Shown here: one piece after another, positions 3,397-48,645 of the stretch
How the letters are laid out: each line of letters begins with the position of its first letter
Position numbering within the stretch: position 1 is the stretch's first letter
DNA from: a virus
Length of the DNA stretch: 48,672 bases
Virus record (IMG/VR): IMGVR_UViG_3300028176_000006
Span: 1-48,672 of that record
Reading direction: 5' to 3' (one strand)
The notes under the pieces: generated by a model
The model's input: only the letters and a program-made list of their open reading frames with translations
Told to the model about the DNA's origin: nothing
Database searches by the model: none
Program-made: the position numbers and the translations under genes

Positions 3397-3412
3397 TACA
3401 ATTCACCTCCAA

Positions 3413-4519: not shown

Positions 4520-4541
4520 TTCAATTCACATCCTTTTGCAG

Positions 4542-5216: not shown

Positions 5217-5237
5217 TTTAATTTCCTTTCAGCCCCA

Positions 5238-5318: not shown

Positions 5319-5323
5319 AAAGA

Positions 5324-5638: not shown

Positions 5639-5658
5639 AAAGGCTCTCCATTTATTAT

Positions 5659-5736
5659 TGGTTGCAGCGACAGGAATCGAACCTGTTTAAGCAATTTGAT
5701 TTCGCTTCACCGTAGACCACTTGGGTCACTACTGCA
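5659..5736 (-). tRNA. tRNA or tRNA-like gene, anticodon ambiguous (UCA or CAA), CCA encoded
   Basis: Read on the minus strand, the 3' end encodes CCA. The T arm is perfect (ACAGG stem, loop TTCGATT, CCTGT). The D loop has the usual AAGTGGT with a 3-bp ACC/GGT stem. The acceptor pairs TGCAGTA with CGCTGCA: five Watson-Crick pairs, one G-T and one A-C mismatch. The anticodon arm is odd. The best pairing is a 6-bp stem (AAGCGA with TTGCTT) and loop AATCAAA, which places UCA, a UGA-reading triplet, at the centre but lacks the conserved U33. Placing U33 normally gives CAA (Leu) but a poor stem. The variable loop is very short. Clearly tRNA-derived; function uncertain. Confidence 0.75.
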
Positions 5737-5761
5737 GAAACAATAGCATCAATACAAGCTA

Positions 5762-6145: not shown

Positions 6146-6169
6146 GTCCTTTCATCCTCCAACCCCCAG

Positions 6170-6568
6170 TTATTCTGAATAGAGTCCATCCTCTGGTGAA
6201 GATGGGTTAGTATCCCAAAATGGTTCTTTACGTCTTTCAAATACTGTCTTGCCTCTTGGTAGTGTATCCCCACGCATTTCAGCACGTTCCTCTTTAGTCA
6301 ATCCACCTTTGGGATCAATCGTTTCTGTCCTAGCATTATTCTCCCAAAGTTTTGCACGTAAGTCTCTACCAGACTTTACCCAACAACCCAATGATTCATT
6401 GTAGTGCTCTGGAACATCGCCATGAACAACAGTCTTTATAGTAGAATAATCCTTACGCATGGGAGTATTACACTTCTTACATGGTGGACTTGTATCTACT
6501 GATATAGGTATATCAACGTCTTTCTCAAACGCACCACACTTATCACAAATTAAATCCCATAGTGCCAT
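6170..6568 (-). CDS. FmdB-like zinc-ribbon protein
   Basis: 132 aa, ATG at 6568 with AAGGGGGG upstream. The first 45 residues form a zinc ribbon of the FmdB/putative regulatory type: LICDKCGAFEKDVDI, then PPCKKCNTPMRKDYS. The four cysteines form two CxxC knuckles separated by about 20 residues. The rest is charged and hydrophilic with several Glu/Arg-rich stretches (LTKEERAEMRGD, FERRKEPFW), probably disordered or helical. Proteins like this are common beside phage portal genes; their role is not established. Here it lies directly downstream of the portal gene. A DNA-, RNA- or protein-binding role in packaging or head assembly is an inference. Confidence 0.7.
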   Translation of the reverse strand: MALWDLICDKCGAFEKDVDIPISVDTSPPCKKCNTPMRKDYSTIKTVVHGDVPEHYNESLGCWVKSGRDLRAKLWENNARTETIDPKGGLTKEERAEMRGDTLPRGKTVFERRKEPFWDTNPSSPEDGLYSE

Positions 6569-6586
6569 AATTAAAACCCCCCTTTA

Positions 6587-8217: not shown

Positions 8218-10260
8218 TCACCGCCTTTTAACTTCAAAGTGAACATGCAATACAGTTGAGGAGGTTCCTTTAGTTGCCTTTACCCTAGCATACCAATCAC
8301 CAGCAACGACAGTATCAGGAACGGTGAACGCATATTTATAATGACCAGTAGACTCTTTAACTAGTTTGGAAGAGTCATAAGCCACTCGTCTAGAGTTCCT
8401 GCAATCGTATATCTCTACAGTGTGTGAATCTGGGTCATAAAGAGTTTCCGTTTCAAAATCCCTAATATCCCATTCAACAATGCAAGTCTGACTTGGAAAT
8501 ACGTGCATTTCAGCACCTCCGTAGAAATGAATACCGGTTACAATATATTCGGGATATATTTCAGCGTTGTCAAAATAAACAATTTCGGAAAATAGAGTGG
8601 ATGGTGATTCAGTAATGTCAATTACTTCAGTAATATTTTTACCAATCGTCTTTACAATTTCATCAGTTAATGCTATGTTATCTTGGAATATTAAAGTGTT
8701 GCCAGTGAATACTGTTATTATAAGACCTATTACATCGCCTTTTGGTGCATACACAATCTTCTCTATAACTTCGGACAATCTTTCCTGCTCGTTAATATAT
8801 AGCCAATACTCACCTAATCCATTATACTTTAGCAATCTTAGATGTTGCCATAATTCAAACCAACTACGCACAGGTCTTGCAAACAACTTGGCAACTGAGT
8901 CTGATAAAGAAAGCGCAGACTCGAAAAATCTTAAATGACCTGATGTAAGGATTGCCAAGAACTCTGAAAGATTAAACGAATCACTTACGTATTTCTGTAT
9001 TCCCTTTATATTATAATCAGTTAGATAGAAGTAATCAAATACTGCAAGTGGTTTGGTATTTAGACCATGAAAACTATCAATAACATTGACATAGTCTACT
9101 ATATACTTTGTTACTCTTTTACCGATTGTATCTAGTAAAGGGATGACATCATTAGGATATGGATAATCACCGAGTATCCTAACTACATCAGCGTTATCGT
9201 TAAGGATAATATTGTCTATATAAGATGGCGACCAAGAAGTATTAAGAGATGATAAAGATGCTAATGATAGAGATTCATTAATTGGTTTTGAAGGACTCTT
9301 GGATGATAATTCTGATAATGACAATGACTCCACTGGGGAAAGTGTATGAATTACTGCAAATGGCGTATTAGTTCCAGCGAATATCATGTGCTTATTTGAT
9401 AGACCATATAATAAAAAAGCACCATTCGTTCCAGAAGCACGAGCACCTACTTTATCAGTAGAGTTTGCCGCAGAATCAGTAAACGCAATGCCCTGCACTC
9501 CAAATGTGCCCCATACATATAATCCACTAGCATTGGTGTCATCCCATAACTCCGAATAATACCCACTAATTACTTCGGTGGACGACCACTGCGCCCCAGC
9601 AACGGCATATATAGTTGTAGGATTTACATTAAATACAGCACCGCTTTTATAGTAACCGTTAAGTAGAAACTTAACATCTGTATGAGCTATATACCCTTCA
9701 AAAATCTCATCTTCATCCACCCCAATAGTAAATGAGCCTTGACTTTTTAGGGAAGCGCCAGAAAGTGGCGGATCTGTTGTCGATCCATTTGGTCTAACTT
9801 TAAAGTTATCTGTGCCGGCGACTGACCATATTTGAAGTATAGCCGCTATAGCTACCTCTGTTGTATGTGCCGATATATCAATATCTTGATATGATCCAGT
9901 GGTGCCTAAAGATATACTCACTCCATTAACAAACATATCTACTTCATCTTCGACATACCCAAGAAGATATATTTTGAAAGTATTGTTCTCTAGTTTAGCC
10001 TCGAAACATTTATCCCCATCAATACCTATTGTCATCCATAAAGTGCTTCTTCCGACTGTATCAATATATATTGCATCAGTAGACCCTTTACATCTAATAT
10101 CCCAAGAATACAGACTCGATGTTGATTGAGAGCATCCTGCAAGTATAACACCCCTTGCGTCTGCAGATACATATGCAGACACGTCTATAGTCTGATACGA
10201 CCCATATGCGGCAGGAATTAACTCTATTACATCAGCACCCTGTAAAAGGACGGTAGCCAT
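8218..10260 (-). CDS. Large repeat-containing virion appendage/tail protein, 680 aa
   Basis: ATG at 10260, following the previous stop as TAAATG. Three tandem beta domains of about 100 residues start the protein. Repeats 1 and 2 are clear by eye: GSYQTIDVSAYV against GSYQDIDISAHT, then CKGSTD against PNGSTTD, then TIGIDGDKCFEAKLEN against TIGVDEDEIFEGYIAH. Repeat 3 is more diverged. The middle (about 310-560) has short repeats around S-L-S-L-S-E and I-x-L-T-D-E-I-x-K, common in phage tail appendages. The last 100 residues look like an Ig-like domain (HTVEIYDC, YAFTVPDTVVAGDWYARVKA). Called a receptor-facing or head/tail appendage by composition and position; no catalytic site is seen. Confidence 0.6.
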   Translation of the reverse strand: MATVLLQGADVIELIPAAYGSYQTIDVSAYVSADARGVILAGCSQSTSSLYSWDIRCKGSTDAIYIDTVGRSTLWMTIGIDGDKCFEAKLENNTFKIYLLGYVEDEVDMFVNGVSISLGTTGSYQDIDISAHTTEVAIAAILQIWSVAGTDNFKVRPNGSTTDPPLSGASLKSQGSFTIGVDEDEIFEGYIAHTDVKFLLNGYYKSGAVFNVNPTTIYAVAGAQWSSTEVISGYYSELWDDTNASGLYVWGTFGVQGIAFTDSAANSTDKVGARASGTNGAFLLYGLSNKHMIFAGTNTPFAVIHTLSPVESLSLSELSSKSPSKPINESLSLASLSSLNTSWSPSYIDNIILNDNADVVRILGDYPYPNDVIPLLDTIGKRVTKYIVDYVNVIDSFHGLNTKPLAVFDYFYLTDYNIKGIQKYVSDSFNLSEFLAILTSGHLRFFESALSLSDSVAKLFARPVRSWFELWQHLRLLKYNGLGEYWLYINEQERLSEVIEKIVYAPKGDVIGLIITVFTGNTLIFQDNIALTDEIVKTIGKNITEVIDITESPSTLFSEIVYFDNAEIYPEYIVTGIHFYGGAEMHVFPSQTCIVEWDIRDFETETLYDPDSHTVEIYDCRNSRRVAYDSSKLVKESTGHYKYAFTVPDTVVAGDWYARVKATKGTSSTVLHVHFEVKRR

Positions 10261-33846: not shown

Positions 33847-34065
33847 ATGATTAGTCATTGGGTGCTATCAAACATAATAAAAGCTCGCCAGCTTGCACAC
33901 AGTCAGGGGGTTAAGCTATACTGTTGCAAGATTACTAGCGAGCAAGTCAACCAATTTTTACATTCAATTAATTCGCCTAGAAAGGACGACTACTTAATTA
34001 CAAAGACAGGCGAGGTAGTTATACTTCATGGACTACCTGCCCACCCTTCCACTACTTCTTCTTGA
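33847..34065 (+). CDS. Last early-arm protein, hypothetical, 72 aa
   Basis: ATG at 33847, one base after the previous stop, with AGGGAG upstream. Contains a helix (WVLSNIIKARQLAHSQGVKLYCC), a strand-turn part and a second helix (QVNQFLHSINSP). No family recognised. Its 3' end overlaps the end of the giant minus-strand gene by 33 nt, tail to tail, and a hairpin covers both ends. Confidence 0.55.
   Translation: MISHWVLSNIIKARQLAHSQGVKLYCCKITSEQVNQFLHSINSPRKDDYLITKTGEVVILHGLPAHPSTTSS
34009..34041. terminator. Hairpin at the convergent gene ends
   Basis: GGC-(G)-AGGTAGT (34009-34019) pairs with ACTACCTGCC (34032-34041): 10 bp with one bulge and a 12-nt loop. It covers the minus-strand stop (34035-34033). 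No T-run on either side, so it may act as a weak bidirectional terminator or transcript end protector. Confidence 0.45.
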
Positions 34066-37000
34066 ACGAGTGGCTCTTTTAGTTCTACCACCAGTTGCAT
34101 CTTTATCCTTTAGCGGAACAACAAACAATGCTTCTGGTGGTTTCTCCCCAACAGCAACGCCAACCGCATTTCGTATCGCAACTCCAGCTGGAACAGCCGT
34201 AAAGAAGTCATACTGCGATAATCTTCTCCACCCCTCATCTAACACACCATCATTATTAGTTAAAGCACCATACACTATTTGACCCAAATCTAATGCCATA
34301 GCTACTGGCGGAGACACTGGAAAGAATACTTGCTTACCTGCCACCCTACCTGCTGGATACTGCATTGTTGGTAGCATCCAAGACACATCAACACCCATCT
34401 CTTTTGCTGTGTAAAATATAGCAGCTGTTGCTCCAGCGTGCCAAAGTATCGCATACCTTTCAGGATCTGTCCACTTTAATGGTTCACCGAGAACAGATTT
34501 ACCACCCATCAACTGCTTCATTAGTTGAGGGAAGTAAGATGTAAAGTAGTTCATTGTCCAGTTCTGATACATCAATGCTTGACTCGCAACACTACTTTGA
34601 AGTAGCGGAGGTAAGTCCATCTTATGATAAGACCACTGAGTAAAGCGGATATTCCTATCAGCTATCTCGAGTTCAGTCTTAAATCTACCTACCCCAACAG
34701 CTTCATCTAGCACATCCCAAAAACCAGTGCCCGCTAGCATCTTCTTACTGTAACCATTCTCAACTGCAAACTCAGCCAACTCTTTCATTCTTGAAGGACT
34801 ATCTTTAAATAGCCGATACATCGCACCGTTACCTGCTGATGCAACATTCCAGTATCTTTCAATCAAAGTATTGGGCATTAATCCTACTTGGTCTATCTTT
34901 CCAATGACTCCATGCATCCTGAAATCTTCCAAAGGAACACGACCATAGGCAGATATGTATTTGTTTAATAGATTCCTACCTCCTTTGGTGTGCATGGATT
35001 TAATACCCTCAACTGTAGACTTCATACCTATTGTTGATACTGTGTGCATTGGCTGAAACAAGTTCTTTACAACAGGACGCATGTTGCCCTGCATAGTTCC
35101 ACGCAAGAAACCACGCTTAATCATAGATGCAAACTTATCATAAGCCCTAGTGTTCGGATTCATTGTATTAGCTAAATCTTTTAACCCAACTCTAGGCATT
35201 ATATCTTCAATAACTTCTTTGCTTATATAGTATGCACCCTTGTTAAATGCTTCATCTATTTTACCTAGCATTGTTTCAGGGTCAAGACCCATACCTCTAT
35301 GAACACGAATTGCTCTCCTGTAATGCTTATCAATCGAGTTCTTTACAGTTGATTCTGGCATAGCCTTTATAAAGGATTCGCCACGCTTGATTACAGGCTC
35401 AAGATAAATCTTGCGAACTTCAGAACGATACGCTGACTCGGTTACCTGTCGCCAATCTCTAGCAAACAGGTCATCATCTCTAATTCTCTTATGGAAGTTA
35501 GATATGTTTATATCAGTAGGCATCCTCTTAAAGGTCTTACGCCCATACATATTTATCAGATCTTGATCTAAACTAGACTTAAACTTGGCGTTAAGCTCTT
35601 TATACTTTGCAATATCCGTAGCATCCCTTGACATCTGCATTTTTATAACATCATCTAATTCATAGCCATACTTCTCTTTGAACGCTTTCTTATATTCACC
35701 AGTGATGTTATCCTTTAATGCTCTAACATGGGGATAATAGTTCTCGATGAATAAAGGCATACCAGTTTCCATTGACTTAACTCTACTCTTTGTCATTAAC
35801 CCCTGCGATACCGCTACTTCGCCAAGCTCATTCCACATTGTTCTATCGCCAGCAACTGTCTTTCTTATGTGGTCAATCTGGTCTTCGCTAAATTGAGCAA
35901 GTATATTAGCAGGTATAATAGCTGCATCGCCTTCTTCAGCAAAGTAAACCGCAACTTCGTCCTCCATCTTAGCCCACTTCTTTTTGAATGTTTCACTATA
36001 CGCATGCTCCTGTGTTTTTATAAACTTGTTTCTTTCTTTAAGCAGTCCTTCTGATAATCTCCAGTAGTTTCTCAAGTCTGCATTAAGATGTGGAACACCT
36101 AGCTTCTCAAAGATTCTCCAGTCTGGCTGAGCTTCCATAACTGCACGATTCCATACTCGTAAAGTTTCAGGCATCTCAGCCATTGTAGTCTTTATATTCT
36201 CATGCAATCTAGATAATTCATACCTATCTAACTTTTCCCAATCTTTAACACTACCCATCGACTGCCTCTTTGCATAATCATTAAGTGCGTTTCTATCCCA
36301 CAACTTTACACTTTGTCGAGCCTTCACTGCTGCTTTAGTAGTGCCCTCCGCCTCAGCAATCTGCTTCATCTTTGTATCTGAATCTCTGAGTATGCGCCTT
36401 ATATCACCAATCTTTATAGTTCTTTCAATCTCACCTGCCAAGTTTTCTTGCAGGTCATCGGCATACTTCATTGCATCATCTATATTCTTCAGACGTTTCT
36501 TTAATTCATTTTCATAGAAAGGTAAAGCAGGTATGGTCTCTTTGGTTACTGTTTTGAATTCTTCAAACTGTTTAAGTGCATCGTCAGTTATAGCAACATA
36601 TACATCGTGTGGAGAATCGCCAGCACGAATACCGCCTTTATGTTTCCAGAAGTCATATCCCAACTCTTGAATCTTTGATATCGCAGATTCTTTAGCCATA
36701 TCTCTTTTAAGCATATCATCCACTACTCCAGCTGGATAATTTTTTTCTATTATTAAATCCGCAACTCTTGTTTCGTATTCAACTGGACTGGATTTCCATA
36801 TAGCTAATCCATCTATTTCATTTTGAGTGATACCAAATTCTTTTAATGTTTTATTAGAAGCAGTATTAATATCAAACACTTTAGCATTTTTGGGCTTCTC
36901 AAATTTGAATAGTTTTTTACCATAAGACTTGGCAATTTCTTCATCCGATGTAGTGAATACGCCCTTACCGAATAGTATATTGCCAACCACATCCGAATCA

Positions 37001-38481
37001 GCTACTTTACGAAGTTCTTCAAACTGCTCAGATTGCCCTCTATAAAGTAGTCCCTCCTTTGGTGTTGGAGTTTGGGTAGTGGTAGTAGTAACCTTGATTG
37101 GTCTTTCAAGTGTAGAATCGAGACCTGCTATTACATCATCCAAATCTTTCTGCGCACCAATGGAAACTTTTAGATTCGCAAACGATTCTTTTACTGCTTT
37201 ATCAGCTGTTGTTCCTATCTCATCCAAAGTTTCTTGCGGTATGTTTTTTCGGAGAACATTGAGTGCGTTCTCTTTACCATCTATATCTTCCAGCACTTCA
37301 CTAAGTATTCGCTTAGTCTCTGGAGTTATCCGCTTTATATGCTCTCCCATTTCCTTATTTTGAGATACAACTTGTTTCCTCAATGCCGTTTTTTGAGCCG
37401 TCAGGGCATCAATACTTGATTTGTTTTCAACAAGCCCCTTGTTTATGGCATCAACAGACATCAACGGTGTAATGCCATTTTCCGAAGCCGATAATGCCAT
37501 TGTAAGCCCTTGATTCAATTCCGCTTGTTTGGATGCCAATTCCGATATTTGACCGTTGATTGACCCCATCTTGGCTTGATTTGACCCCTTTGAAACGCTT
37601 ATTTCGTTTGACCGTCTTATTATGTCGTCAACCGCTTTTCTATTGTCTATTACCTGTGTCTGCCTTGCGTGTAATTTTACAACTTCAGCTTTCTTTATCT
37701 TCAGATAATCGGATGCAGATGGTAAAGTATTGCCCAATAAATCAGTGAGTTCTTTTGCAGGTGTCAAACTCTTTCTTGCTATATCAATAACGTCTGGAAC
37801 AAACATATCAATGGACATTTCTTCTATGGCTCGTTCAAAACCAATAAGAGAATTAATAGCTTTCCACTTAGGAGATTCAAGTTTGCGTTCAGCTATATCA
37901 TTAAGTTTCTTTTCCCAATTAGCAGTTCCACCAGACAACATCGAACCGATTGGATCTGATACTGTTCCATAATAATTCCCGAATACAGGTTTACTATATT
38001 TTGTTTTGCCCTCAGCAAGAATTACATCACGAAGCATGGCTGGATATGATACACCGTTTGGCTTAGACCTGATGTCTTTGAATGTAAGGAATGCTAGTTT
38101 GGAATCAGACTTCATAGCTATTTCTTCTGCATCAATATGCCAGCGTAAAGCACCAACAATTACTCTAGGTGTAAAGTCCAATACGTCTTGCGCTATTCTT
38201 ACGGTAGGTCTGAATGGTGGAAGTATAAACTTCTCAAAGGTAGTCTGAGCTTTATATGGGTCATACTTTTCTATAGTTTCATTGACTTTCTTATTATATT
38301 CATTCTCAGCGTAATCAGGAACTTTGGCATTTTGTTCAGCATAAGCAGATGAGAAGTCTGGTAGTTGGATGGAATCTTTGATTCCATCTGACCCGACAGA
38401 ATCATAGATTCTGTCAAGTTCGGCATCCTTTTTATAAGCACCACTAAAATCTGGTAGTTCTATTTTCTTTTTGTTTTCCAT
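34033..38481 (-). CDS. Giant internal virion (ejection) protein with ADP-ribosyltransferase-like domain, 1482 aa
   Basis: ATG at 38481, TAATG overlap, AGAGGTA upstream. Last and largest of three ejection-type genes after the nozzle gene, the place of T7 gp16. Near the start LPDFS-x-AY occurs twice, separated by a double palindromic element (DRIYDSVGSDGIKDSI). Residues about 240-470 are coiled coil. Residues about 475-635 start LLYRGQSEQF and continue LFGKGVFTTSDEEIAKSYGKKLF, ending HDVYVAITDDALKQFEEF, the order of an ADP-ribosyltransferase fold. The C-terminal part has hydrophobic stretches (ATAAIFYTAKEMG, VAMALDLGQIVYGAL). It would be injected with the DNA, form a conduit and perhaps modify host proteins. 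Confidence 0.75.
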   Translation of the reverse strand: MENKKKIELPDFSGAYKKDAELDRIYDSVGSDGIKDSIQLPDFSSAYAEQNAKVPDYAENEYNKKVNETIEKYDPYKAQTTFEKFILPPFRPTVRIAQDVLDFTPRVIVGALRWHIDAEEIAMKSDSKLAFLTFKDIRSKPNGVSYPAMLRDVILAEGKTKYSKPVFGNYYGTVSDPIGSMLSGGTANWEKKLNDIAERKLESPKWKAINSLIGFERAIEEMSIDMFVPDVIDIARKSLTPAKELTDLLGNTLPSASDYLKIKKAEVVKLHARQTQVIDNRKAVDDIIRRSNEISVSKGSNQAKMGSINGQISELASKQAELNQGLTMALSASENGITPLMSVDAINKGLVENKSSIDALTAQKTALRKQVVSQNKEMGEHIKRITPETKRILSEVLEDIDGKENALNVLRKNIPQETLDEIGTTADKAVKESFANLKVSIGAQKDLDDVIAGLDSTLERPIKVTTTTTQTPTPKEGLLYRGQSEQFEELRKVADSDVVGNILFGKGVFTTSDEEIAKSYGKKLFKFEKPKNAKVFDINTASNKTLKEFGITQNEIDGLAIWKSSPVEYETRVADLIIEKNYPAGVVDDMLKRDMAKESAISKIQELGYDFWKHKGGIRAGDSPHDVYVAITDDALKQFEEFKTVTKETIPALPFYENELKKRLKNIDDAMKYADDLQENLAGEIERTIKIGDIRRILRDSDTKMKQIAEAEGTTKAAVKARQSVKLWDRNALNDYAKRQSMGSVKDWEKLDRYELSRLHENIKTTMAEMPETLRVWNRAVMEAQPDWRIFEKLGVPHLNADLRNYWRLSEGLLKERNKFIKTQEHAYSETFKKKWAKMEDEVAVYFAEEGDAAIIPANILAQFSEDQIDHIRKTVAGDRTMWNELGEVAVSQGLMTKSRVKSMETGMPLFIENYYPHVRALKDNITGEYKKAFKEKYGYELDDVIKMQMSRDATDIAKYKELNAKFKSSLDQDLINMYGRKTFKRMPTDINISNFHKRIRDDDLFARDWRQVTESAYRSEVRKIYLEPVIKRGESFIKAMPESTVKNSIDKHYRRAIRVHRGMGLDPETMLGKIDEAFNKGAYYISKEVIEDIMPRVGLKDLANTMNPNTRAYDKFASMIKRGFLRGTMQGNMRPVVKNLFQPMHTVSTIGMKSTVEGIKSMHTKGGRNLLNKYISAYGRVPLEDFRMHGVIGKIDQVGLMPNTLIERYWNVASAGNGAMYRLFKDSPSRMKELAEFAVENGYSKKMLAGTGFWDVLDEAVGVGRFKTELEIADRNIRFTQWSYHKMDLPPLLQSSVASQALMYQNWTMNYFTSYFPQLMKQLMGGKSVLGEPLKWTDPERYAILWHAGATAAIFYTAKEMGVDVSWMLPTMQYPAGRVAGKQVFFPVSPPVAMALDLGQIVYGALTNNDGVLDEGWRRLSQYDFFTAVPAGVAIRNAVGVAVGEKPPEALFVVPLKDKDATGGRTKRATRSRRSSGRVGR
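38368..38415. repeat. In-gene double palindromic element in the giant internal protein gene
   Basis: GATGGAATC-TTT-GATTCCATC (38368-38388) and GACAGAATC-ATA-GATTCTGTC (38395-38415), both perfect 9-3-9, six nt apart. On the coding strand both are in phase: D-R-I-Y-D-S-V, G-S, D-G-I-K-D-S-I. The same GTCGGGTC spacer occurs at 16021-16028. L-P-D-F-S-x-A-Y is found on both sides of the element, as if a short target was duplicated. Confidence 0.92.
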
Positions 38482-39674
38482 TACCTCTTATCCAATCGCT
38501 TTATTGCTTCCAACCTATCAGCGTCTGTCATCTCTTTAGAAGTAGCCAAAGCATCTGAAACCTGCTTAAGAGTCCACCCATCACTATCCATTCTTGCCTT
38601 GCCCCAAGTATATCCAATTTTTACTGCGCTTTCATTTATTGTAGATTCGTTTGCAGACCGAACAAGTCCTCTGCCTGTATCGGCAATGGTTGGTTCTTCG
38701 GCACTGTATGATATACTGCCTTCAGTTCTTTTTCTAAACCATCCTTTGTCCTCTATCGACACCTCAGGTTTCAAAGGTTGAGCAATACCACGTATAACTG
38801 CTTTTTGTTTATCAGTTAAACTAGGATCAGAAAGTAAAGTGCCTTGATTAATCATTAGTCTGTCATACATCTGCTCGGCAAGTTTCAAATCATCTACATT
38901 ATATTTACCTTTTTTGTCTGGAACTACTGACTGAATAAATTCCATATAATCTTTTTGACCATCAATGTATGATTTAACTAATGGACTAGCTCCTTCAGAT
39001 GCTTTATCTAAATCCCTCATTCTAGCATCAACAAGATTGGCTCTATCGTTACGACCCATCTCATTCATGGTAGCGATATCCCACTGATTAGCTATGGATT
39101 TGTTTAGTCTTGTTGACATACCTGCTTGTTCAATTCCAACAATTTCTTTACGACCCTGCTGCTCAGCAACAAATTTCTTCATGCCGAGCTCAGATTCAAC
39201 ACCTGCCATTTCTAACTTACCAGCTTGCTGAATATTCTGCTCATATCCAAAGGTTCTTTTATCAACAGCATCTTTAGCTTTATAACCCTTTATGTCATAG
39301 TCATACTCAATCTCTTTTGTAGCCCTTTCGTATGCTAGTTTATTTTCAGGATCACTAAGTGCCATGTCGTTCAGTATCTTCATGGTGCTTGCCTTTGAAT
39401 TTTCCATAGATATTTGAGCAGACTTAAAAGCTATTTCTTCTGTTGCTTGATGACTTCTCTCTACTTCATCCTGCTTGCGAACATCTAGCTCATGAGCCCT
39501 CTCGCCTTTGAGCATAGATATTACTTTATCTGCCATCTTGATTTTGTTTTCTTGCTCAGCTAGTTCCTTTTCTTCAAGCTCTTTCTTTCTAGTTGACAGA
39601 CCTTTGGCAAGACCAGAGATGATTGCAAGCTCTTTACTTGGTGCTAGTTTACTTGTTGCTACTGTTCCTGCCAT
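38481..39674 (-). CDS. Internal virion protein, coiled-coil, 397 aa
   Basis: I use ATG 39674, five nt after GGAGGTGA; the longer frame from 39701 overlaps the previous gene. Residues 1-200 are rich in Lys, Glu, Gln and Ala with long heptad patterns (LSTRKKELEEKELAEQENKIKM, IEQAGMSTRLNKSIANQWDIATMNEM). The C-terminal third is more compact. By position and makeup it corresponds to the gp14/gp15-type ejection proteins of podoviruses, which leave the head with the DNA. No enzyme motif seen. Confidence 0.65.
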   Translation of the reverse strand: MAGTVATSKLAPSKELAIISGLAKGLSTRKKELEEKELAEQENKIKMADKVISMLKGERAHELDVRKQDEVERSHQATEEIAFKSAQISMENSKASTMKILNDMALSDPENKLAYERATKEIEYDYDIKGYKAKDAVDKRTFGYEQNIQQAGKLEMAGVESELGMKKFVAEQQGRKEIVGIEQAGMSTRLNKSIANQWDIATMNEMGRNDRANLVDARMRDLDKASEGASPLVKSYIDGQKDYMEFIQSVVPDKKGKYNVDDLKLAEQMYDRLMINQGTLLSDPSLTDKQKAVIRGIAQPLKPEVSIEDKGWFRKRTEGSISYSAEEPTIADTGRGLVRSANESTINESAVKIGYTWGKARMDSDGWTLKQVSDALATSKEMTDADRLEAIKRLDKR

Positions 39675-39675
39675 G

Positions 39676-40581
39676 TTATTCACCTCCGAATACTTCAGCA
39701 AGTATCTTACTTAGATCTATATCCTGCCCTGTGTATGGGTCTTTAACAAATTGAGAACCATAGGAAGATGCTCCACTAGTGTTAGCATTATACCAACTAG
39801 CTTGGGCAGGTGCTTCTTGTTCTGCACCACCAAATAAACTTGACATTGTAAAACCACCCTTGCTAGCTTGGTTATAATCAGACGCAGGTTGCATTGCTTC
39901 TGGATTAAAGGGGAACCCCATGCTCGAAACTCCGCCAGACATCTCTTCTGGATTAGCAGATATACCTGCTTCTGGTGCTGCTTCGGGTGAAAGACCCAAC
40001 AACTTATCAAGGAAACCAGATGAACCAATCGCTTCAGATATCAGACCCATCGACTCAGCATCACCTGCTTGCTTTGCAGCTTCCAACTGAGAGAGCTTCA
40101 AGTCAAAGTTCTTGACATCGCCCTCGTAACCCAAACCTGCAAGTTTAGCTTGCAATGCGTTTTGTGCTGACGTAGAGGCGACAGCCTCTCCAGCCTGACG
40201 AGTCATATCCTTTGTATCTTTTATTGTAGCACCAGTTCTTAATGAACCACTGCTAGCCCTTTGCTGATTCATCGTCTTAATTGATTCTCTTAACTGTCTG
40301 TTAATTATTTGACGCTGTGCTTCTGTTTGGTTACCAGCTAAATCCATGAGTTCGCCCTGAACGCCACGAATGTTTTCTCTTGCTACACCAGCAGCCTGTC
40401 TTTCCATTTTTGTGTCAAGATAATTAGCAGATAAAGATGGGTCAACCCATCCTAGTGCACCAACCTTAGCTTTCTCCCACCACCCCATTTTATTGGGCAT
40501 AGCGTTAATCTTTTGCTGGTCGGATTGGAAACCACTACCACGCCTCATTGCCTGAAGTGCAAGTGCTTTATACGCACCCAT
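39676..40581 (-). CDS. Internal virion/ejection protein, Ala/Gln/Ser-rich, 301 aa
   Basis: ATG at 40581 follows the stop of the 42-aa gene directly (TAAATG) with GGTGGTGG upstream. The N-terminal half is helical and Gln/Arg-rich (LDTKMERQAAGVARENIRGVQGELMDL, RQIINRQLRESIKTMNQQRASSGS). The C-terminal half is Gly/Ser/Ala/Pro-rich with little structure. This is the usual look of the smallest podovirus ejection protein (gp14-like). It is the first of three in a row, followed by coiled-coil and giant proteins. Confidence 0.65.
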   Translation of the reverse strand: MGAYKALALQAMRRGSGFQSDQQKINAMPNKMGWWEKAKVGALGWVDPSLSANYLDTKMERQAAGVARENIRGVQGELMDLAGNQTEAQRQIINRQLRESIKTMNQQRASSGSLRTGATIKDTKDMTRQAGEAVASTSAQNALQAKLAGLGYEGDVKNFDLKLSQLEAAKQAGDAESMGLISEAIGSSGFLDKLLGLSPEAAPEAGISANPEEMSGGVSSMGFPFNPEAMQPASDYNQASKGGFTMSSLFGGAEQEAPAQASWYNANTSGASSYGSQFVKDPYTGQDIDLSKILAEVFGGE

Positions 40582-41091: not shown

Positions 41092-42924
41092 CTACCTCAG
41101 TGGTTGCTTTAGATATCTTAATACCAATCGTTCTATTTCACCACTCTGAAAATAAAACGAGAAAGAACAAAGTCTGGATGGCTCTCCCATTAAGTCAGTT
41201 TCGTATTCATTGGATGGAATAGCAAAGTTGTCATACGGTTGTTCACTGTTCTCATTATACATTTGTATAGTGAAGAAGCCTGATTGGTCTTTGGCATAGA
41301 CATCCAACTTTCGTGGAAGCCCAATAAGGTGTCCATCAGATAAATCTATCCAATGAAATCTGAAGTAAGAATCAATTTCTACATCATCATTATCATACTT
41401 GCAGTCTGGTTCATAATACCTATTAATATATCCCGCTTTACCACCTAGAAGATAACCATTGCTGTCAACTAAGAAGCACTTTGGATTAACGTTAGTATCA
41501 TTTACCCATGCATTAGTTGAAAGGTTACAGACCCAAGCATTACCTGATTGAGGTGCAAGAACATAATACAGTATTCCATCTTCTGCACGATAGATTCCAC
41601 CTGCTACATCATCCAATCCAATGATAGAATCTGCAACCTGATTACTTATACACTGGAGTCCCGTGTTTCTGCTGATTTTATAAACGCCATGAACCTTTGA
41701 GTAAAAGATTAAAGCATCGCCAATAGATACAAGGCTTCTAGGTGATGTGCATCCGACTCCCAAATCAGTTTGATTTGGTGTCTGGTCGCCGCCAACCTCT
41801 ACTTGAATTATTGGAACAGCATCGGGGTCGCCTGTTATCGACCAAACTGAACGATTCTTGAATACGAGTAGTGAATTGCCAAGCACCCCACAAATAGTAA
41901 TAACATCCCCATCATCCCTCTTTATGTCTATCCATGAATCATCATCTACTTCTTCGGGTCTACCAAGTTCGGAATACCAAAGTAGTGATGGGTCAAAGTC
42001 CTCACGAATCCAATACATTCTATCATGATAGACTATTGGTTTATTAGCTCCAGCAAAACGAGATATAGAATTCTCAAGTATTTCTTCTGTATGGTATGTC
42101 CTAAGAACTTCATCAGATATATTATCATCATCAGAACTGTTTGCATTTGGAACAGAGAACAATCTAAAGTATTGCGTGTTAGGCGATAAGGGGTCGGTAT
42201 ATGTTTCAGTTGCCCATATTTCTATTCCATTTGTATTCACATCACCAGATGTAACGTATTCTATATTAACAAGTTTATTTACCAACAACGCTGTCGGTTG
42301 TGCGGTATAAAATTCAGACTTATAGGTTATTAAATCTACACCAGCAACTTTATGAACATATCTATATTTGTAATCTCTGTATCCATTCAAAGCACCAGTA
42401 TCATAAGTCAATGCCAAAGGAACTGATGGAGCAGTGATATCATCATCCATCGTGAGTAAAGTAGTTCCAGATGTTGTTCCATCTGTCTTTACAATTTCAT
42501 GACCATTAGCAATATACATATAATCTAAATAAGTGCAACACCAGATATCATCATCTGTTAAAGTAAAGGCTAACGCATCTGTTATATCCCATTCAGTATC
42601 ATCGGCATATCCATCCCAAAGATAAAGTTTGTCCTCAGCACCGAAGATGTAACACGAATAAGTAGCTATTGCGCCGCCAACTGCATTGTATTGACGCACA
42701 TACTGATAAAGTCCGTTGATAACCTCATCAACATAGACATCATACTCGCCATAATCGGTTAGATAGAACTGACCTTTTCTTTTCTTTATAGAACCATCAG
42801 ATACCCTGACATTACGTGCCTCTAAGAATGACCCTATTGACGCTTCGCCTCTGGATATAGCTGTTATAATACCAAAGGCAAACTTATCAATAGTTCTATA
42901 ATAGAAACCTCCGCCTCTTCTCAT
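41092..42924 (-). CDS. Tail nozzle protein (beta-propeller, T7 gp12/P22 gp10-like)
   Basis: 610 aa, ATG at 42924 overlapping the previous stop (ATGA). Starts with a hub-like segment (GEASIGSFLEARNVRVSDGSIKKRKG) typical of podovirus tail tubular protein B, where ARN plus R near the start is common. Repeats of W- and G-containing four-strand blades follow (KLYLWDGYADDTEWDIT, DYMYIANGHEIVKTDG, RMYWIREDFDPSLLWYSELG, VFKNRSVWSITGD, DALIFYSKVHGVYKISR, YLLGGKAGYINRYYEP). This is a propeller that closes the tail end and stabilises packaged DNA. Length fits the P22 gp10/T7 gp12 range. Six copies would sit below the adaptor encoded two genes upstream. Confidence 0.75.
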   Translation of the reverse strand: MRRGGGFYYRTIDKFAFGIITAISRGEASIGSFLEARNVRVSDGSIKKRKGQFYLTDYGEYDVYVDEVINGLYQYVRQYNAVGGAIATYSCYIFGAEDKLYLWDGYADDTEWDITDALAFTLTDDDIWCCTYLDYMYIANGHEIVKTDGTTSGTTLLTMDDDITAPSVPLALTYDTGALNGYRDYKYRYVHKVAGVDLITYKSEFYTAQPTALLVNKLVNIEYVTSGDVNTNGIEIWATETYTDPLSPNTQYFRLFSVPNANSSDDDNISDEVLRTYHTEEILENSISRFAGANKPIVYHDRMYWIREDFDPSLLWYSELGRPEEVDDDSWIDIKRDDGDVITICGVLGNSLLVFKNRSVWSITGDPDAVPIIQVEVGGDQTPNQTDLGVGCTSPRSLVSIGDALIFYSKVHGVYKISRNTGLQCISNQVADSIIGLDDVAGGIYRAEDGILYYVLAPQSGNAWVCNLSTNAWVNDTNVNPKCFLVDSNGYLLGGKAGYINRYYEPDCKYDNDDVEIDSYFRFHWIDLSDGHLIGLPRKLDVYAKDQSGFFTIQMYNENSEQPYDNFAIPSNEYETDLMGEPSRLCSFSFYFQSGEIERLVLRYLKQPLR

Positions 42925-43847
42925 TTGCTTTTATCCAATCGGTAAGTATCACTATCTTCGTGATACGTTGACGTCTCTAGAAACCAACACGGATGCCCAA
43001 TAGGATTCCAAAATCTGTGATATGTATTAGGTTTAATAACTACTGAATCGCCAGAATAATAAAGTTGGATGCTTTTGTCAATCTCGATAGCTAAAACCCC
43101 ACTTAACACAGTAAAGGTTTCGTGTTTGTTTTTGTGATAGTGCAAAGAGCATTTATGACCATAATCAGCGGTTATCATCTTTGTGCAGTAATTACCCTCT
43201 TTGGAATTGACTATCCAATACTCGGCTCCCCATACTTTTATAACTGATTCGTAGCGATAAAGAACAAATTCATCTATCGAATCGAAACACCCTAACAGTC
43301 CAAGAAGTCCGCCATATAAATCTTCAGAAGCATCGCATAGATAACATTCATCATCGCCAAACTCATTTAGTATCTGGAGCTTCTTTCCGATACCTGCTTT
43401 CTCGTATGCGAATATGTCATGGTGTCTATCGCCAACGCCTATTGAAAATGCAAGATTTATTTCGTGATTAACAGCCAAGTCCACTATTGCAAGAAACTTT
43501 GCATCAGCTTTTGATTCATCGGTCTCTTCTTCAGATACACATACTTCCCATCCGCTGACAGGAACTAGTGTTTCGAGGAATATTCTATCAGCCATAGTTT
43601 GAATTATATCCTTGACTGACTTATTACTAACCAATCCTTCTTTAATACAATTCTGCATGGTAACGAAGAATATTTCATATCCAGCATTATAAAGTAGTTT
43701 GATGGAATCAAATACACCATCACGAAACTCGACATCACTATAAGATAAACAGTAATAACAGCCGTCTTTCTTACTAGTATTGTTGTGTCTTATGACTCCA
43801 TCTAAATCTAGAAAAGCACCTCTCTTATCAAAACCCCCTGATGACAT
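42921..43847 (-). CDS. Fusion of a HAD phosphatase (GmhB-like) and a cupin domain
   Basis: 308 aa, ATG at 43847 with GGAGGAATAAA. N-terminal half: FLDLDGVIRHNN (about 12-23, HAD motif I, Asp nucleophile), FFVTMQNCIKEG (motif II Thr), IGVGDRHHDIFAYEKAGI (motif IV, G-D-x-x-x-D). The layout is that of heptose-1,7-bisphosphate or histidinol phosphatases, without the cysteine zinc loop of GmhB. C-terminal half: CSLHYHKNKHETFTVLSGVLAIEI (metal-binding His-x-His and Glu) and NTYHRFWNP, a cupin like the sugar isomerase part of ManC. Such a fusion would carry out two sugar steps. It lies between adaptor and nozzle genes and links to the HldE-like kinase at 24601. Confidence 0.8.
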   Translation of the reverse strand: MSSGGFDKRGAFLDLDGVIRHNNTSKKDGCYYCLSYSDVEFRDGVFDSIKLLYNAGYEIFFVTMQNCIKEGLVSNKSVKDIIQTMADRIFLETLVPVSGWEVCVSEEETDESKADAKFLAIVDLAVNHEINLAFSIGVGDRHHDIFAYEKAGIGKKLQILNEFGDDECYLCDASEDLYGGLLGLLGCFDSIDEFVLYRYESVIKVWGAEYWIVNSKEGNYCTKMITADYGHKCSLHYHKNKHETFTVLSGVLAIEIDKSIQLYYSGDSVVIKPNTYHRFWNPIGHPCWFLETSTYHEDSDTYRLDKSK

Positions 43848-43848
43848 T

Positions 43849-44553
43849 TTATTCCTCCCAATTAATTCCAGCTTGTGAATTATCTACCAAGCCAAAGTTT
43901 GAAAAAGCGTTAAAATTAGAACCATCTTTAGCAACCTGCGACCTATCTTGGATAACTGTTGAAGTTGTCTCTATCGACTTGCACTCATTGATAATGCTGT
44001 TATATAGTAACAACTCCTCACTAATAACAAGTTGTTCATCAACACGCCTTGTTCTGTTGATGCACGCCTCCACTAAATGTATGTGCATTTCAGCAGGAAG
44101 AATTGGTGTATCGTTCTCACTAGTAATTCTTGGAGGTGTTCCATAGAACCACATGAAAATGTCAACTGCTTCAGTATCAAAGATGGGATAAATCCAAAGC
44201 TCTTTACGACCAGACGACTCCCACACAAAACCTTTATATGGCGTTGCTGATGTAGTTGAATCTGGTGTTGAGTGTTTGCCATAGATTTCTCTTGGTGAAG
44301 CACAAAGGTTTATTTGTCCTTCGGCACCTGCATTACTATACCAAAGATACTCAATGGAAACATAGGTGAATGGCATGAGATAACGCTGTTCAGTTGAAGA
44401 TTCAAACTTGTAGAAATCCCTAACCATTAGCTTCAATGAAGAACACATCTTCATCTGAACAACGTTGATGAGATTAATTAGCCTCTCATCATTCCAGTAT
44501 CTTTTGGAATTTATGTCCGACTGAACATAATCTATTATATCACGTATTGTCAT
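43849..44553 (-). CDS. Head-to-tail adaptor protein
   Basis: 234 aa, ATG at 44553 overlapping the previous stop (ATGA). Opens MTIRDIIDYVQSDINSKRYWND, then ERLINLINVVQMKMCSSL, the helical start of podovirus adaptor proteins (T7 gp11, P22 gp4-like), followed by a beta region (YVSIEYLWYSNAGAEGQI, KELWIYPIFDTEAVDIFMWFYG) and helices (PAEMHIHLVEACINRTRRV). Size and place before the nozzle gene support it. It would join portal (6587-8212) to nozzle. Family match is by pattern, not search. Confidence 0.6.
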   Translation of the reverse strand: MTIRDIIDYVQSDINSKRYWNDERLINLINVVQMKMCSSLKLMVRDFYKFESSTEQRYLMPFTYVSIEYLWYSNAGAEGQINLCASPREIYGKHSTPDSTTSATPYKGFVWESSGRKELWIYPIFDTEAVDIFMWFYGTPPRITSENDTPILPAEMHIHLVEACINRTRRVDEQLVISEELLLYNSIINECKSIETTSTVIQDRSQVAKDGSNFNAFSNFGLVDNSQAGINWEE

Positions 44554-44746: not shown

Positions 44747-44938
44747 CTATTGCCGTTTGAATCTTGTTGCTACTTTGCGTAACCGTTTGAAAACTGCTAC
44801 CCTAGACACCGTTGCTATCGCATCCGATAGGTAGATGTTGGAATACCCTCCAGCACCAAATACTATCAATGCTTGCAAGAACGAGCAATTAAATACTGAG
44901 TATATAATATAAGTTAAAGTGGAAAATAATCTAATCAT
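44747..44938 (-). CDS. Small membrane protein, 63 aa
   Basis: ATG at 44938 overlaps the pyruvyltransferase gene by 8 nt. A hydrophobic segment (TLTYIIYSVFNCSFLQALIVFGAGG) is followed by a basic tail (RVAVFKRLRKVATRFKRQ). One membrane helix with a positively charged C-terminus fits a holin or a glycan-cassette membrane partner. No family recognised. Confidence 0.55.
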   Translation of the reverse strand: MIRLFSTLTYIIYSVFNCSFLQALIVFGAGGYSNIYLSDAIATVSRVAVFKRLRKVATRFKRQ

Positions 44939-45857
44939 TTATAATACTCTCGACTTTCAACAGAAAATCACTGAATAGCTCGGTCAACTCTTTTGTTCTA
45001 GTATATATATAATATCTCATACGTTCTTTATCTGCAATAAATTTCTGAAGTTCGTCTGCAAATGTTTCAGTTACTAGATGATTGTCCGTCCAATGTTGCA
45101 TATCCGAAGCATATAAAAAACGCCTAACAAACCTATGTTTAATATTAGACTCAATAGAAAAACACGGTTTATGATAAGCAAAAGACAGCACCTGCCCATG
45201 AAATCTTTTAGAGATGGTAAAAGAGCAGTTAGCATATTGGTTAAATCTAAAAGATGTATCATCATGATTGATAAAAATAGGATTGTAATCATACTTGATT
45301 AGTTCCTTTTCGATAATAGATTTGCACCTGTCAGTATAAAGCGAAACACCGACATTGTAATTATCATATTGCTCAATCCTAGAGCCAATAAACAATAGTG
45401 GGTCTGGGCAAGTAAAAGTCTTTTTCCTATCAGCACCCAATGATATAGCCATCTCTTTGTCATCTTCAGTTCTAAAACCCATTAAATCTGCACGTCCAAA
45501 TAAAGCGTGCATACTCTCTTTCCAGTCATTCCTGAAATCGAACCTATCATAATCTCTATTAAAGCCTGTGGACATAATTATTAATGGGCATGATATATAT
45601 TTGTATAGTTCTGGGTCATAAGCAAACATTACTTTGCCGATATTGGCACTATGAAAACATCCACCAGTTCCTATAATAATAGTTTCCACTCCCTCGCAAA
45701 ATTTTTCAATATCCTCTTTGGTTTTGAACGCAGACCCTTCATAGCCGACAGTTACTACATTTTTATTAGTTATTGTATTAACATACCCATGAAGGATTTT
45801 GGCTGATTTGCTATCACCTATATTCATGTGATAAGCAGCAGATACTATTTTAATCAT
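44931..45857 (-). CDS. Polysaccharide pyruvyltransferase-family protein
   Basis: 308 aa, ATG at 45857 overlapping the previous stop. N-terminal Rossmann start (IKIVSAAYHMNIGDSKSAKIL) and IIIGTGGCFHSA, then RADLMGFRTEDDKEMAISLGA and a C-terminal site CSFTISKRFHGQVLSFAYHKPCF: the S-x-R-x-H-x-x-x-x-x-A pattern of the CsaB/WcaK pyruvyltransferase family (GT-B-like). It would add pyruvate ketals, or a sugar in related members, to a surface glycan. Together with the neighbours it forms a glycan-modifying set within the virion operon. Confidence 0.75.
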   Translation of the reverse strand: MIKIVSAAYHMNIGDSKSAKILHGYVNTITNKNVVTVGYEGSAFKTKEDIEKFCEGVETIIIGTGGCFHSANIGKVMFAYDPELYKYISCPLIIMSTGFNRDYDRFDFRNDWKESMHALFGRADLMGFRTEDDKEMAISLGADRKKTFTCPDPLLFIGSRIEQYDNYNVGVSLYTDRCKSIIEKELIKYDYNPIFINHDDTSFRFNQYANCSFTISKRFHGQVLSFAYHKPCFSIESNIKHRFVRRFLYASDMQHWTDNHLVTETFADELQKFIADKERMRYYIYTRTKELTELFSDFLLKVESIIND

Positions 45858-46627
45858 AGTTTGTATGCTCCCTTTAGATACTCACCAAACTTAATCCCAT
45901 CATAATCAGTTAATGTTGTCCCGCCAGTTATTTTATTTAACCACTGTTTGACTTCATCACTAAACAAAGAGCAAGACATCCTTTGCTCTAATGGTTGTCC
46001 TACTCCCCCAGCCCAATGAAGCAGTTTAACAACTCTTGGGTCTTTGTCGTCAACAGTATAGAGTTGGTCATATCTTGCCTCTAGTCTATTCCACCACTTG
46101 CGAGAACATTCATTATACCATACTCCTGAATCTTTGTCATCAAGAACTTTTATAATATTTTTACGCTGTTTCATATTATTAAAAACATACATAAATAGTG
46201 CATTATCTTCGCAAGCCCAAGCACGGTGGGAATAGAAGAACTCTTTAATAAACTCCAAATCTCTTGATGCCCATACGCCACAATTATAATATCCATCATA
46301 TGACTGACTACGACTTACGGCTGTATCATAATCATCCATGAGCATTTCGTCGCATCTACCAGTAATGATTATATCAGCATCGAAATATAATAGTAAGTCA
46401 TATTTCTCTACCATCATTTTCTGTATTGCATAGAATAAACCGACTATAACTGGATACTTTAATGGGTGTCTCGGCTCCTGATGAACCTCTATCATGTATG
46501 GTTTCCAATCCTCAGCTATTGCGATGTGCATTGGAATATCAGGATGAAAATAATCCCACGATGCCTTGCATCTTTTAGCAAGAGGTAACATATTGTTGGC
46601 TGTTTTAACTACTGGTAATATTTTCAT
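45854..46627 (-). CDS. DXD glycosyltransferase (GT-A fold)
   Basis: 257 aa from ATG 46627 (overlaps the previous stop as ATGA, AGGAGTGAGG upstream); a longer frame has no site. MKILPVVKTANNMLPLAKRC start, then LLLYFDADIIITG (about 77-89) with the DxD metal motif, SYDGYYNCGVWASRD, and a later LLHWAGGVGQPLEQ, typical of GT8/GT34-like galactosyl or glucosyl transferases (His near the C-terminus). Donor and acceptor unknown. Works with the GT9 and methyltransferase genes beside it. Confidence 0.7.
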   Translation of the reverse strand: MKILPVVKTANNMLPLAKRCKASWDYFHPDIPMHIAIAEDWKPYMIEVHQEPRHPLKYPVIVGLFYAIQKMMVEKYDLLLYFDADIIITGRCDEMLMDDYDTAVSRSQSYDGYYNCGVWASRDLEFIKEFFYSHRAWACEDNALFMYVFNNMKQRKNIIKVLDDKDSGVWYNECSRKWWNRLEARYDQLYTVDDKDPRVVKLLHWAGGVGQPLEQRMSCSLFSDEVKQWLNKITGGTTLTDYDGIKFGEYLKGAYKL

Positions 46628-47241
46628 GGATGCCTCACTCCTAGTTGAGGATATACAAAATAATGACAAGTAGCCCACAAATTAGGAAACTTCTGGTCAA
46701 CTGCTCTTGTAACCCCTATTGTAGATCCCCACTTATAATCATCAAATACCATATAACTATCTGTAACCATCCTAGACCAAAAGAAATCAATAGCCATCTT
46801 GGTCGGTTCGTATATATCAAGATCTATATATACCAAACTAAACTTCCTGTCTGATGCATTAACAAGAGTATCCGCTATCCACCCATCATACACCTTTACT
46901 CTATCGCCAAAGATGGATAAATACTTTATAGCCTTATCTCTGTCGGATGCAAAGTTTTTCGGTTTGAGTTGAAAATTACCAGCAGCATCTCTGTCCTGTT
47001 CTGTCATTTCGGATAAACCCTGAAAAGAATCAAAGGCAAACAGTTTCTTATCTGACTTCATAACCGATGCTAACATATAAGAAGTCCCACCGGCATGACA
47101 ACCGACTTCGGCAAAATCTCCTTCTAAAGAATTACAATGAATTGCCACATTATAAAGGGCGTTCAATCTGTCAGTTGTAAGTAGAGATTTTGGTCTTACT
47201 GTTTCTCTTATACTATCAAATCCTTCATGTTTAGGAAACAT
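46624..47241 (-). CDS. TylF-like SAM-dependent O-methyltransferase
   Basis: 205 aa, ATG at 47241, overlapping the upstream gene by 11 nt. Contains DFAEVGCHAGGTSYMLASVM (SAM-binding motif I), LFAFDSFQGLSEMTEQD, then SLVYIDLDIYEPTKMAIDFFW and YMVFDDYKWGSTIGVTRAVDQ, the metal-binding D-x-D and D-D-Y pattern of macrocin O-methyltransferase (TylF) enzymes. It would methylate a sugar hydroxyl, in line with a glycan cassette. Length (about 205) is slightly shorter than TylF itself. Confidence 0.82.
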   Translation of the reverse strand: MFPKHEGFDSIRETVRPKSLLTTDRLNALYNVAIHCNSLEGDFAEVGCHAGGTSYMLASVMKSDKKLFAFDSFQGLSEMTEQDRDAAGNFQLKPKNFASDRDKAIKYLSIFGDRVKVYDGWIADTLVNASDRKFSLVYIDLDIYEPTKMAIDFFWSRMVTDSYMVFDDYKWGSTIGVTRAVDQKFPNLWATCHYFVYPQLGVRHP

Positions 47242-48175
47242 TTATCCACTCCAGTATAGAACTATAATCAGGTTCAATATCTCTTTCGGTAATTATAGTT
47301 TTATTAAATGGTTGATTAAATCCCCATGCTGTTGGATTACCAGAAGATGCAAATTCTTCCCAAGACTGACCTCCATCATGAGTTGTTGGAACTATACATA
47401 CAGAACGTTTCCTTGCATACCACGCTGGTAACACCATTGAACTATGAGTTCCTACAAATCCATCGGAATTTAGAATAAGATGCAAGAATTCTCTAACAGA
47501 GAACCCAAGTAAATTGAAGAACTTACCATCTGATTTTCTATCCCATTCCTCAATCATCTCAATTTTATCATTAGTATTCTTTTTGAATGAAGAACCTATT
47601 GCAACAACTGCATATCCAGAGTCGATAAAGGTGTCCGCAATTTTATTATAAATATCAATGCCGACTGGTTCTCTATGCTTAAGCCCTGCAAATGGATGCA
47701 GGACAACATACTTCCTAGTATTTATAATAATACTTGCGTGGCACTTCTCATGATAGTCAAGATATATTTCTGGAGTAGTTGGCTCGTATTTCTCATAAGA
47801 TAGTTCATCATCATCTATGTATCTAATATATTTATAACCATCGTATTCTTTCATCCACCATTCACCATCTTCGTCTGCTGGTAAATGATAAGGCATTAAA
47901 TCAACATAATCTATTGCAGGATGAAGGTCAAATAACTGAGTTACTGCTGGATTATGGCAAGTAGCTTTAATTATTAAACTAGACAACGGATTCTTCTCTT
48001 TGAAATCTTCCAATCTACGAAACCATAAAGATGCGTAATTATCAGATGTAGGAAACTCATCTGGAGTATCATGCGATTGATTCCAATGATTAGGGGGGCT
48101 GGATAAATATGCCTGAATGGCATCGCCAAGTCCTCCGCCACAAGGTATGTATGCTTTTATTTTTGTGCTAGACAT
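47231..48175 (-). CDS. Second GT9-like glycosyltransferase
   Basis: 314 aa, ATG at 48175, GGGGGG upstream, overlapping the methyltransferase gene by 19 nt. Starts IKAYIPCGGGLGDAIQAYLSSPP (GT9 glycine loop), then YVVLHPFAGLKHREPVG and LILNSDGFVGTHSSMVLPAWYARKRSVCI, the D-x-x-x-x-T/S-x-S-x-x-x-H/P-x-A order of heptosyltransferases, although the usual His after S-S is a Val. It is more diverged than the GT9 at 626-1567, with which it shares the cassette across the map junction. Confidence 0.75.
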   Translation of the reverse strand: MSSTKIKAYIPCGGGLGDAIQAYLSSPPNHWNQSHDTPDEFPTSDNYASLWFRRLEDFKEKNPLSSLIIKATCHNPAVTQLFDLHPAIDYVDLMPYHLPADEDGEWWMKEYDGYKYIRYIDDDELSYEKYEPTTPEIYLDYHEKCHASIIINTRKYVVLHPFAGLKHREPVGIDIYNKIADTFIDSGYAVVAIGSSFKKNTNDKIEMIEEWDRKSDGKFFNLLGFSVREFLHLILNSDGFVGTHSSMVLPAWYARKRSVCIVPTTHDGGQSWEEFASSGNPTAWGFNQPFNKTIITERDIEPDYSSILEWINVS

Positions 48176-48645
48176 AATAAGTTTTGCCCCCCATCAGAAC
48201 CTATAGACAGTATCGTAAAGCCCATGCCTTCTAATATTTCTCGTAAAGTGTATTGGTCATAAGCCCACTTGTGAGAATCATAGATGTTTGGATTAGCAAA
48301 AAGCGAACTTGCTAATTGATTACCAGTTAAGTCGTGCTGTAGTGGTGATGGATTTTCCAACACACCGCAATATCTTTTGCTTAGTGTTTCTAAGTCTGGC
48401 GTTTGTATATAAATCTGACCACCAACAATTAACTTATCATAGCAACGAGATAAAAACCACGCATGGCAGTTAACAAATAGGTGCTCTATAATATCTTGGC
48501 AATTAATATATTCAATAGAATCATCATCGAATGGCAAGTCATTGTTAGATAAATCCATAACAACATCTACACCATCATGCTGAATAGCATCTATATTGAT
48601 AAATCCATCTTTAATATCATTACCGCATCCTAAATTTAGTTTCAT
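48157..48645 (-). CDS. SAM-dependent methyltransferase (type 11-like), complete
   Basis: 162 aa, ATG at 48645 with GAGGGGG eight to nine nt upstream. Motif I MKLNLGCGNDIKDG, acidic end NIDAIQHDGVDVVMDLSNNDLPF, motif SIEYINCQDIIEHL, then QIYIQTPDL and a C-terminal VLSIGSDGG-type strand. All four blocks also occur in the partial gene at 1-626, so the two genes are tandem paralogues in the circular map. Likely a glycan- or small-molecule methyltransferase. Confidence 0.85.
   Translation of the reverse strand: MKLNLGCGNDIKDGFINIDAIQHDGVDVVMDLSNNDLPFDDDSIEYINCQDIIEHLFVNCHAWFLSRCYDKLIVGGQIYIQTPDLETLSKRYCGVLENPSPLQHDLTGNQLASSLFANPNIYDSHKWAYDQYTLREILEGMGFTILSIGSDGGQNLLCLAQK

Follow-up and report, generated by a model that had tools for sequence, protein, structure and literature searches.

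A putative mobile ADP-ribosyltransferase-superfamily domain with a fixed strand-1 arginine in a giant, probably ejected phage protein

The window analysed here is an entire IMG/VR virus record (IMGVR_UViG_3300028176_000006; 48,672 bases), in which an open reading frame with an ATG start (34033..38481; all window coordinates given below refer to the minus strand) encodes a giant protein of 1482 amino acids, P0001. Residues 476–642 of this protein (36556..37056) form a discrete domain, and sequence comparisons give good support to its assignment to the ADP-ribosyltransferase (ART) superfamily. The best overall explanation, which we regard as reasonably probable, is that of a mobile ART-superfamily domain set in a podovirus-type ejection protein and modifying a host macromolecule. 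The general strategy of virion-borne phage ARTs has already been established (PMC5512222, PMC9503650). The present form seems to be undescribed, the new part being an ART subfamily with a fixed strand-1 Arg that serves an ejection-type protein as an exchangeable module.

Homology of the domain to known ADP-ribosyltransferases

The domain was delimited by alignment with the corresponding domains of two relatives, one encoded by L103/L105 and the other by L104/L106, and by hhalign comparison with the ART-like domains of two cyanophages and of virion RNA polymerases. The profile of these three members matched the ART-like domains of the Synechococcus phages S-CBP42 and P60 with a probability of 92 (E 6.7e-7), and a profile of three roseophage virion RNA polymerase (vRNAP) ARTs, including CBX87992.1, with an E-value of 1.8e-3. 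When two cyanophage rows were added, the resulting five-row family matched the vRNAP ARTs with an E-value of 9.6e-5. The hhalign scores to S-CBP42/P60 and to the vRNAP ARTs were reached by none of 150 column shuffles. Also the comparisons of single sequences pointed to homology: aligned with the prototype ART of CBX87992.1, the window segment scored 57, a value found in 0 of 1000 shuffles (Z 5.8), and against the S-CBP42 domain it outscored all 1000 shuffles. The alignment with the prototype pairs LYRGQSEQFEELRKV with LYHGTGSRFEQFDVRKV, and GVFTTSDEEIAKSYGK with GLFFTNSLELARDYAK.

The first-pass annotation of the window had read the strand order of an ART fold from three strings, LLYRGQ, GKGVFTTSDEEIAKSYG and VYVAITDDALKQF. 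All three are present in the 1482-residue open reading frame, where they occupy residues 478–483, 505–521 and 627–639, respectively, about as had been proposed, and they are more than a chance resemblance, as a motif scan (see below) returned only true relatives and the segment outscored 1000 of 1000 shuffles. The ART-like reading itself was borne out as far as homology is concerned, by the profile comparisons with S-CBP42/P60 and the vRNAP ARTs. Activity is not assured, because strand 1 carries Arg in the place of His, strand 2 Phe and the closing strand Asp.

Motifs and conserved residues

Altogether 42 of the 166 aligned columns are invariant across the three members. The invariant residues are concentrated in the motifs, with 25 of the 29 motif positions invariant as compared to 17 of the 137 positions elsewhere, and they gather on the strands where the active site is expected. 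The strand-1 motif YRGQ (residues 480–483; 37033..37044) is invariant in all three members and aligns to LYHGT/LYHAT of other ARTs. The strand-2 motif GKGVFTT (residues 505–511; 36949..36969) has an invariant G-x-G-V-F-T-T pattern, aligned to GSGVYTA and GLFFT, and is followed by the helix motif AKSYG (residues 517–521; 36919..36933). The motif KHKGGIRAG (residues 613–621; 36619..36645) is specific to the subfamily and recurs as KHxGGIRxG in 3/3 members. The closing-strand motif HDVY (residues 625–628; 36598..36609), likewise invariant in the three, was aligned by eye to the acids of EEVFL/GEIMV.

In strand 1, R481 is Arg in every member where the polyvalent-protein ARTs have His. F509, also invariant, stands at the position of the strand-2 Tyr, and the aligned vRNAP ARTs likewise have Phe in that column. 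D626 is invariant within HDVY, where other ARTs carry Glu or Asp according to the alignment made by eye, and is a candidate for the catalytic acid. The putative Arg-Phe-Asp set is thus fixed in the three members, and K613, H614, R619 and H625 are invariant residues particular to them. The candidate catalytic positions, the loss of which in relatives had been named beforehand as a sign against the ART reading, are kept in both relatives found.

Distribution of the domain among phage proteins

A degenerate DNA pattern for GxG[VILM]FT[TS]x5Ax[ST-like]YG was scanned over the viral collection. Only two other matching stretches were found, and each codes for a counterpart of the entire segment, with 39 and 33% identity to it (tblastn E 4e-34 and 6e-24, respectively). 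One of the relatives, in L103/L105, lies within a homologous giant protein of 1468 amino acids. The other, in L104/L106, is part of a 1102-residue protein that has only the ART-like segment in common with P0001 (33% identity, E 2.5e-18). Identity to the L105 protein is 42.9% in the ART-like segment, 36.3% in the core and 21–26% in the flanks, which makes the segment the best conserved part of P0001 in this comparison. Wider searches for the domain added no third relative from viral contigs, nor any from bacterial or archaeal genomes.

Relatives were reached only through the alignment of the primase, through that of the core of P0001 and through degenerate DNA motifs. The primase alignment led to four related contigs with primases 41–48% identical to that of the window, all four with a homolog of the giant protein, and the core alignment to a fifth; homologs of P0001 were found in altogether six related phage contigs. 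The conserved C-terminal core (residues 761–1482; 34036..36201) is common to relatives with and without the ART-like domain. In the five relatives the core aligns from about residue 660–760 onwards, and no counterpart of residues 476–642 was present in the alignment. Two of the five, L098 and L100, have in the place of the ART-like domain, N-terminal of the core, a zincin-like segment with HELGH. When a tree was built from the core, L105 grouped with a relative devoid of the domain, with support values of 93/95, just under the threshold of the tool; such a grouping would mean that the domain was lost or gained at least once. As judged from these alignments, the domain occurs in unrelated giant phage proteins and is absent from some relatives.

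The HELGH motif is found at residue 374 of the L098 protein (538–4203, minus strand) and at residue 381 of the L100 protein (4276–8019, plus strand), and the HExxH segment of these giant proteins is not recognised by Pfam.

ART-like strings were also observed in other phage proteins. The Gordonia phages Phendrix and GodonK (L003, 1539–5975) encode a portal-adjacent giant protein of 1479 amino acids with ART-like LYRG...GNGTYAAT...ASHYG, which came up in a tblastn search (E 2) and again with Foldseek, at rank 6. In L110 (IMGVR_UViG_3300045999_000599), an unrelated phage open reading frame of 816 residues includes ART-like SFRGV...GPGVYTGGNPDMARTYG, with the motif at 9961–10010 on the minus strand.

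The gene cassette and the delivery of P0001

P0001 is the last member of a co-linear set of genes. The set begins with a structural, adaptor-like protein of 234 amino acids (43849..44553; phrog_399 structural protein, 2.2e-9), followed by a tail nozzle/appendage-like protein of 610 amino acids (41092..42924; phrog_8094 tail appendage, 1e-7, and phrog_511 internal virion protein, 3.9e-4) that is 48% identical to a 618-residue protein of L105. Then come the two smaller cassette members, a 301-residue protein (39676..40581; 38% identical over 101 amino acids to a 251-residue protein of L105, E 1e-16) and a coiled-coil-like protein of 406 residues (38481..39701; 24% identical to a 389-residue protein of L105, E 2e-8). 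The last four genes are kept in the same order in L105, and the genes of L100 are similar in size and order. Compared with T7 and P60, the order of nozzle, smaller proteins and giant protein is that of podovirus ejection proteins, which are known to swap enzymatic domains (PMC8954989).

The gene cassette suggests that P0001 is probably ejected into the host. Ejection is an inference, since no homology between the core and the ejection protein of S-CBP42 could be detected, and the earlier description of P0001 as an injected protein stands on gene order and not on homology of the core. A cassette of the same kind was not found in the L106 phage, in which the genes flanking the giant protein have no similarity to the nozzle and adaptor genes of the window.

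Comparison with known systems

The prototype named for the polyvalent-protein ARTs is the Roseovarius Plymouth podovirus 1 vRNAP (CBX87992.1), in which strands 1, 2 and 5 carry His, Tyr and Asp, respectively (PMC5512222). The group to which these and the N4-type vRNAP ARTs belong, Tox-ART-HYD2, resembles the window domain in having LY[HR]G on strand 1, G[VL]F.T on strand 2 and a helix with E-[IL]-A-[KR]-x-Y, all in matching register, and also in that the carriers are giant virion proteins from phages of the podovirus type. Unlike the prototype, the window domain has Arg instead of His on strand 1 and a conserved closing region, KHxGGIRxG...HDVY, and its carrier has no detected polymerase domain. 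Library searches found no polymerase, Pfam or PHROG domain in P0001, and direct searches of viral and phage protein collections with the whole protein as query gave no match.

With the Synechococcus phages S-CBP42 (gp11) and P60 (gp34) the domain shares GxGV[FY]T and A[KR]SYG, and also there the carrier is a giant last internal virion protein after smaller virion proteins. Their triad, however, is by eye H-Y-E (LYHAT, GSGVYTA, EEVFLFD), and the cores of their carriers have no detectable homology to that of P0001. The window domain is related in sequence to the H-Y-[EDQ] clade but has neither its strand-1 His nor its strand-2 Tyr. Membership of the R-S-E clade (T4 Alt, ModA) was rejected: the Arg is there, but T-T-S/T-T-T and x-H-D replace S-T-S and E-x-E.

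The parallel to T4 Alt drawn in the first-pass annotation therefore stands for the proposed strategy, a virion-borne ART acting at entry, and not for the clade. Alt, like ModA and ModB, has Arg on strand 1, but it is a separate head protein of the R-S-E clade that has been experimentally shown to be active, and it has no sequence match to the window domain. T7 gp16 and other podovirus ejection proteins are likewise giant last cassette members after a nozzle and two smaller proteins, and carry an exchangeable enzymatic domain towards the N terminus (PMC8954989). In T7 gp16 that domain is a transglycosylase, and sequence homology to P0001 is not established.

Proposed function and alternative explanations

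According to the explanation favoured here, residues 476–642 would be a mobile member of the ART superfamily, akin to the H-Y-[EDQ] ARTs found in phage polyvalent proteins, that was inserted into the coiled-coil-like N-terminal region of an ejection protein of the podovirus type. P0001 would be packaged in the virion and, as its place in the cassette suggests, enter the cell together with the DNA or before it. The domain could then bind NAD+ and transfer ADP-ribose to a host macromolecule during the first minutes of infection, with R481 replacing the usual strand-1 His in holding NAD+, F509 stacking on the nicotinamide and D626 on the closing strand acting as the catalytic acid. A more specific version can be put forward tentatively: that the domain represents an undescribed ART subfamily with a fixed Arg-Phe-Asp site and KHxGGIRxG, moving between unrelated giant phage proteins, with a swap zone that in relatives is filled by HExxH or empty, and that it would modify the host by a chemistry mixing H-Y-E and R-S-E features.

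Several results weigh against a functional ART in an ejection protein. The region matched to other ARTs is the N-terminal half, comprising strands 1 and 2 and the following helix, and the match of the closing strand, HDVY to EEVF/GEIMV, was made by eye only. The change of the strand-1 His to Arg may abolish transfer. No library match to the segment passes a curated cut-off, and the Pfam family ART-PolyVal (PF18760) does not match it. The core is matched by neither Pfam nor PHROGs, and homology of the core to the S-CBP42 ejection protein was rejected, as hhalign detected none (E 0.3–0.6 against S-CBP42/P60). The structural check suggested in the first-pass annotation, AlphaFold followed by Foldseek, gave poor models: the single-sequence AlphaFold2 (AF2) model of residues 465–657 had a predicted local distance difference test score (pLDDT) of 36, and the best model, made with five rows, a mean pLDDT of 58 and a predicted TM-score of 0.50, with the lowest confidence in the loop that precedes strand 2 and in the closing region. 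Foldseek gave no confident match for it, and no ART was found among the PDB structures.

The silence of PF18760 says little, because the family also misses the canonical-looking S-CBP42 domain. In favour of the ART reading, two ART-type Pfam models gave weak, independent matches below the cut-off: DUF3990 with an E-value of 0.07–0.08, or 0.002 when only the genome of the window was searched, and DRAT with 0.039 from another member. NCBIfam and PHROGs gave nothing useful for the segment. PDB sequence searches with the segment or the three-member profile returned chance matches only (dehydrogenases and the like), and the list obtained with the S-CBP42/P60 profile was non-significant, consisting mostly of PARP-type and other H-Y-E ARTs. 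The myoglobins matched by Foldseek in the PDB reflect only the helical part of the model. Against viral models no match fell below an E-value of 0.07; among the 50 matches listed, seven were named ADP-ribosylating or PARP-like and another was a protein of the Gordonia phage GodonK, a list that lends the predicted ART fold weak support.

The alternative that survives best, though we consider it rather unlikely, is a degenerate ART, in which the fold would be kept and NAD+, ADP-ribose or nucleic acid bound without transfer of ADP-ribose, for instance for sensing or sequestering NAD-derived immune signals or for anchoring DNA. The Arg in the place of the clade-typical His in all three members is consistent with such a pseudoenzyme, phage ARTs evolve fast, and the pocket would stay conserved also under a binding role. 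However, Arg on strand 1 is a defining feature of the R-S-E clade and compatible with use of NAD+ (PMC9503650), an acid is retained at the closing strand, and the 25 invariant motif residues are shared across unrelated carrier proteins. That the domain would hydrolyse NAD+ or an NAD-derived signal, and not modify a macromolecule, is improbable. ART-fold NADases do exist in antiviral and toxin systems (PMC9503650, PMC13285283), but a fast loss of NAD+ at entry would harm the replication of the phage itself, and the nearest relatives found lie in a class of virion proteins predicted to modify host proteins (PMC5512222). Least probable of all is a structural insertion with chance R-G and F-T-S strings, which would fit the failure to reach any curated family and the AF2 model without a confident ART fold, but not profile comparisons that outscore every shuffle, nor a segment that is the best conserved part of its gene and turns up by itself in a protein that is otherwise not related.

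Carrying an ART in the virion is regarded as a first-line strategy of phages, and the best-known examples come from phages with contractile tails and from N4-type polymerases. The window would add a T7-like ejection cassette in which an ART-like domain is a removable module. The non-standard residue fixed on strand 1 of this domain provides a compact test of how much drift an ART active site can tolerate, and the relatives with the domain, without it or with another domain are natural controls.

Other genes of the window

According to PHROGs, the window also encodes a major head protein, a large terminase, a primase/helicase and an ATP-dependent DNA ligase. The gene for a 308-residue protein (42921–43847) lies between those of the adaptor and the nozzle, and by eye its product resembles a fusion of a HAD phosphatase and a cupin of the sugar isomerase type. 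On inspection by eye, the five consecutive genes at 44931–48645, adjoining the tail genes, look like those for sugar transferases, a pyruvyl-transferase-like protein and two methyltransferases, and the stretch resembles a glycan-modification cluster.

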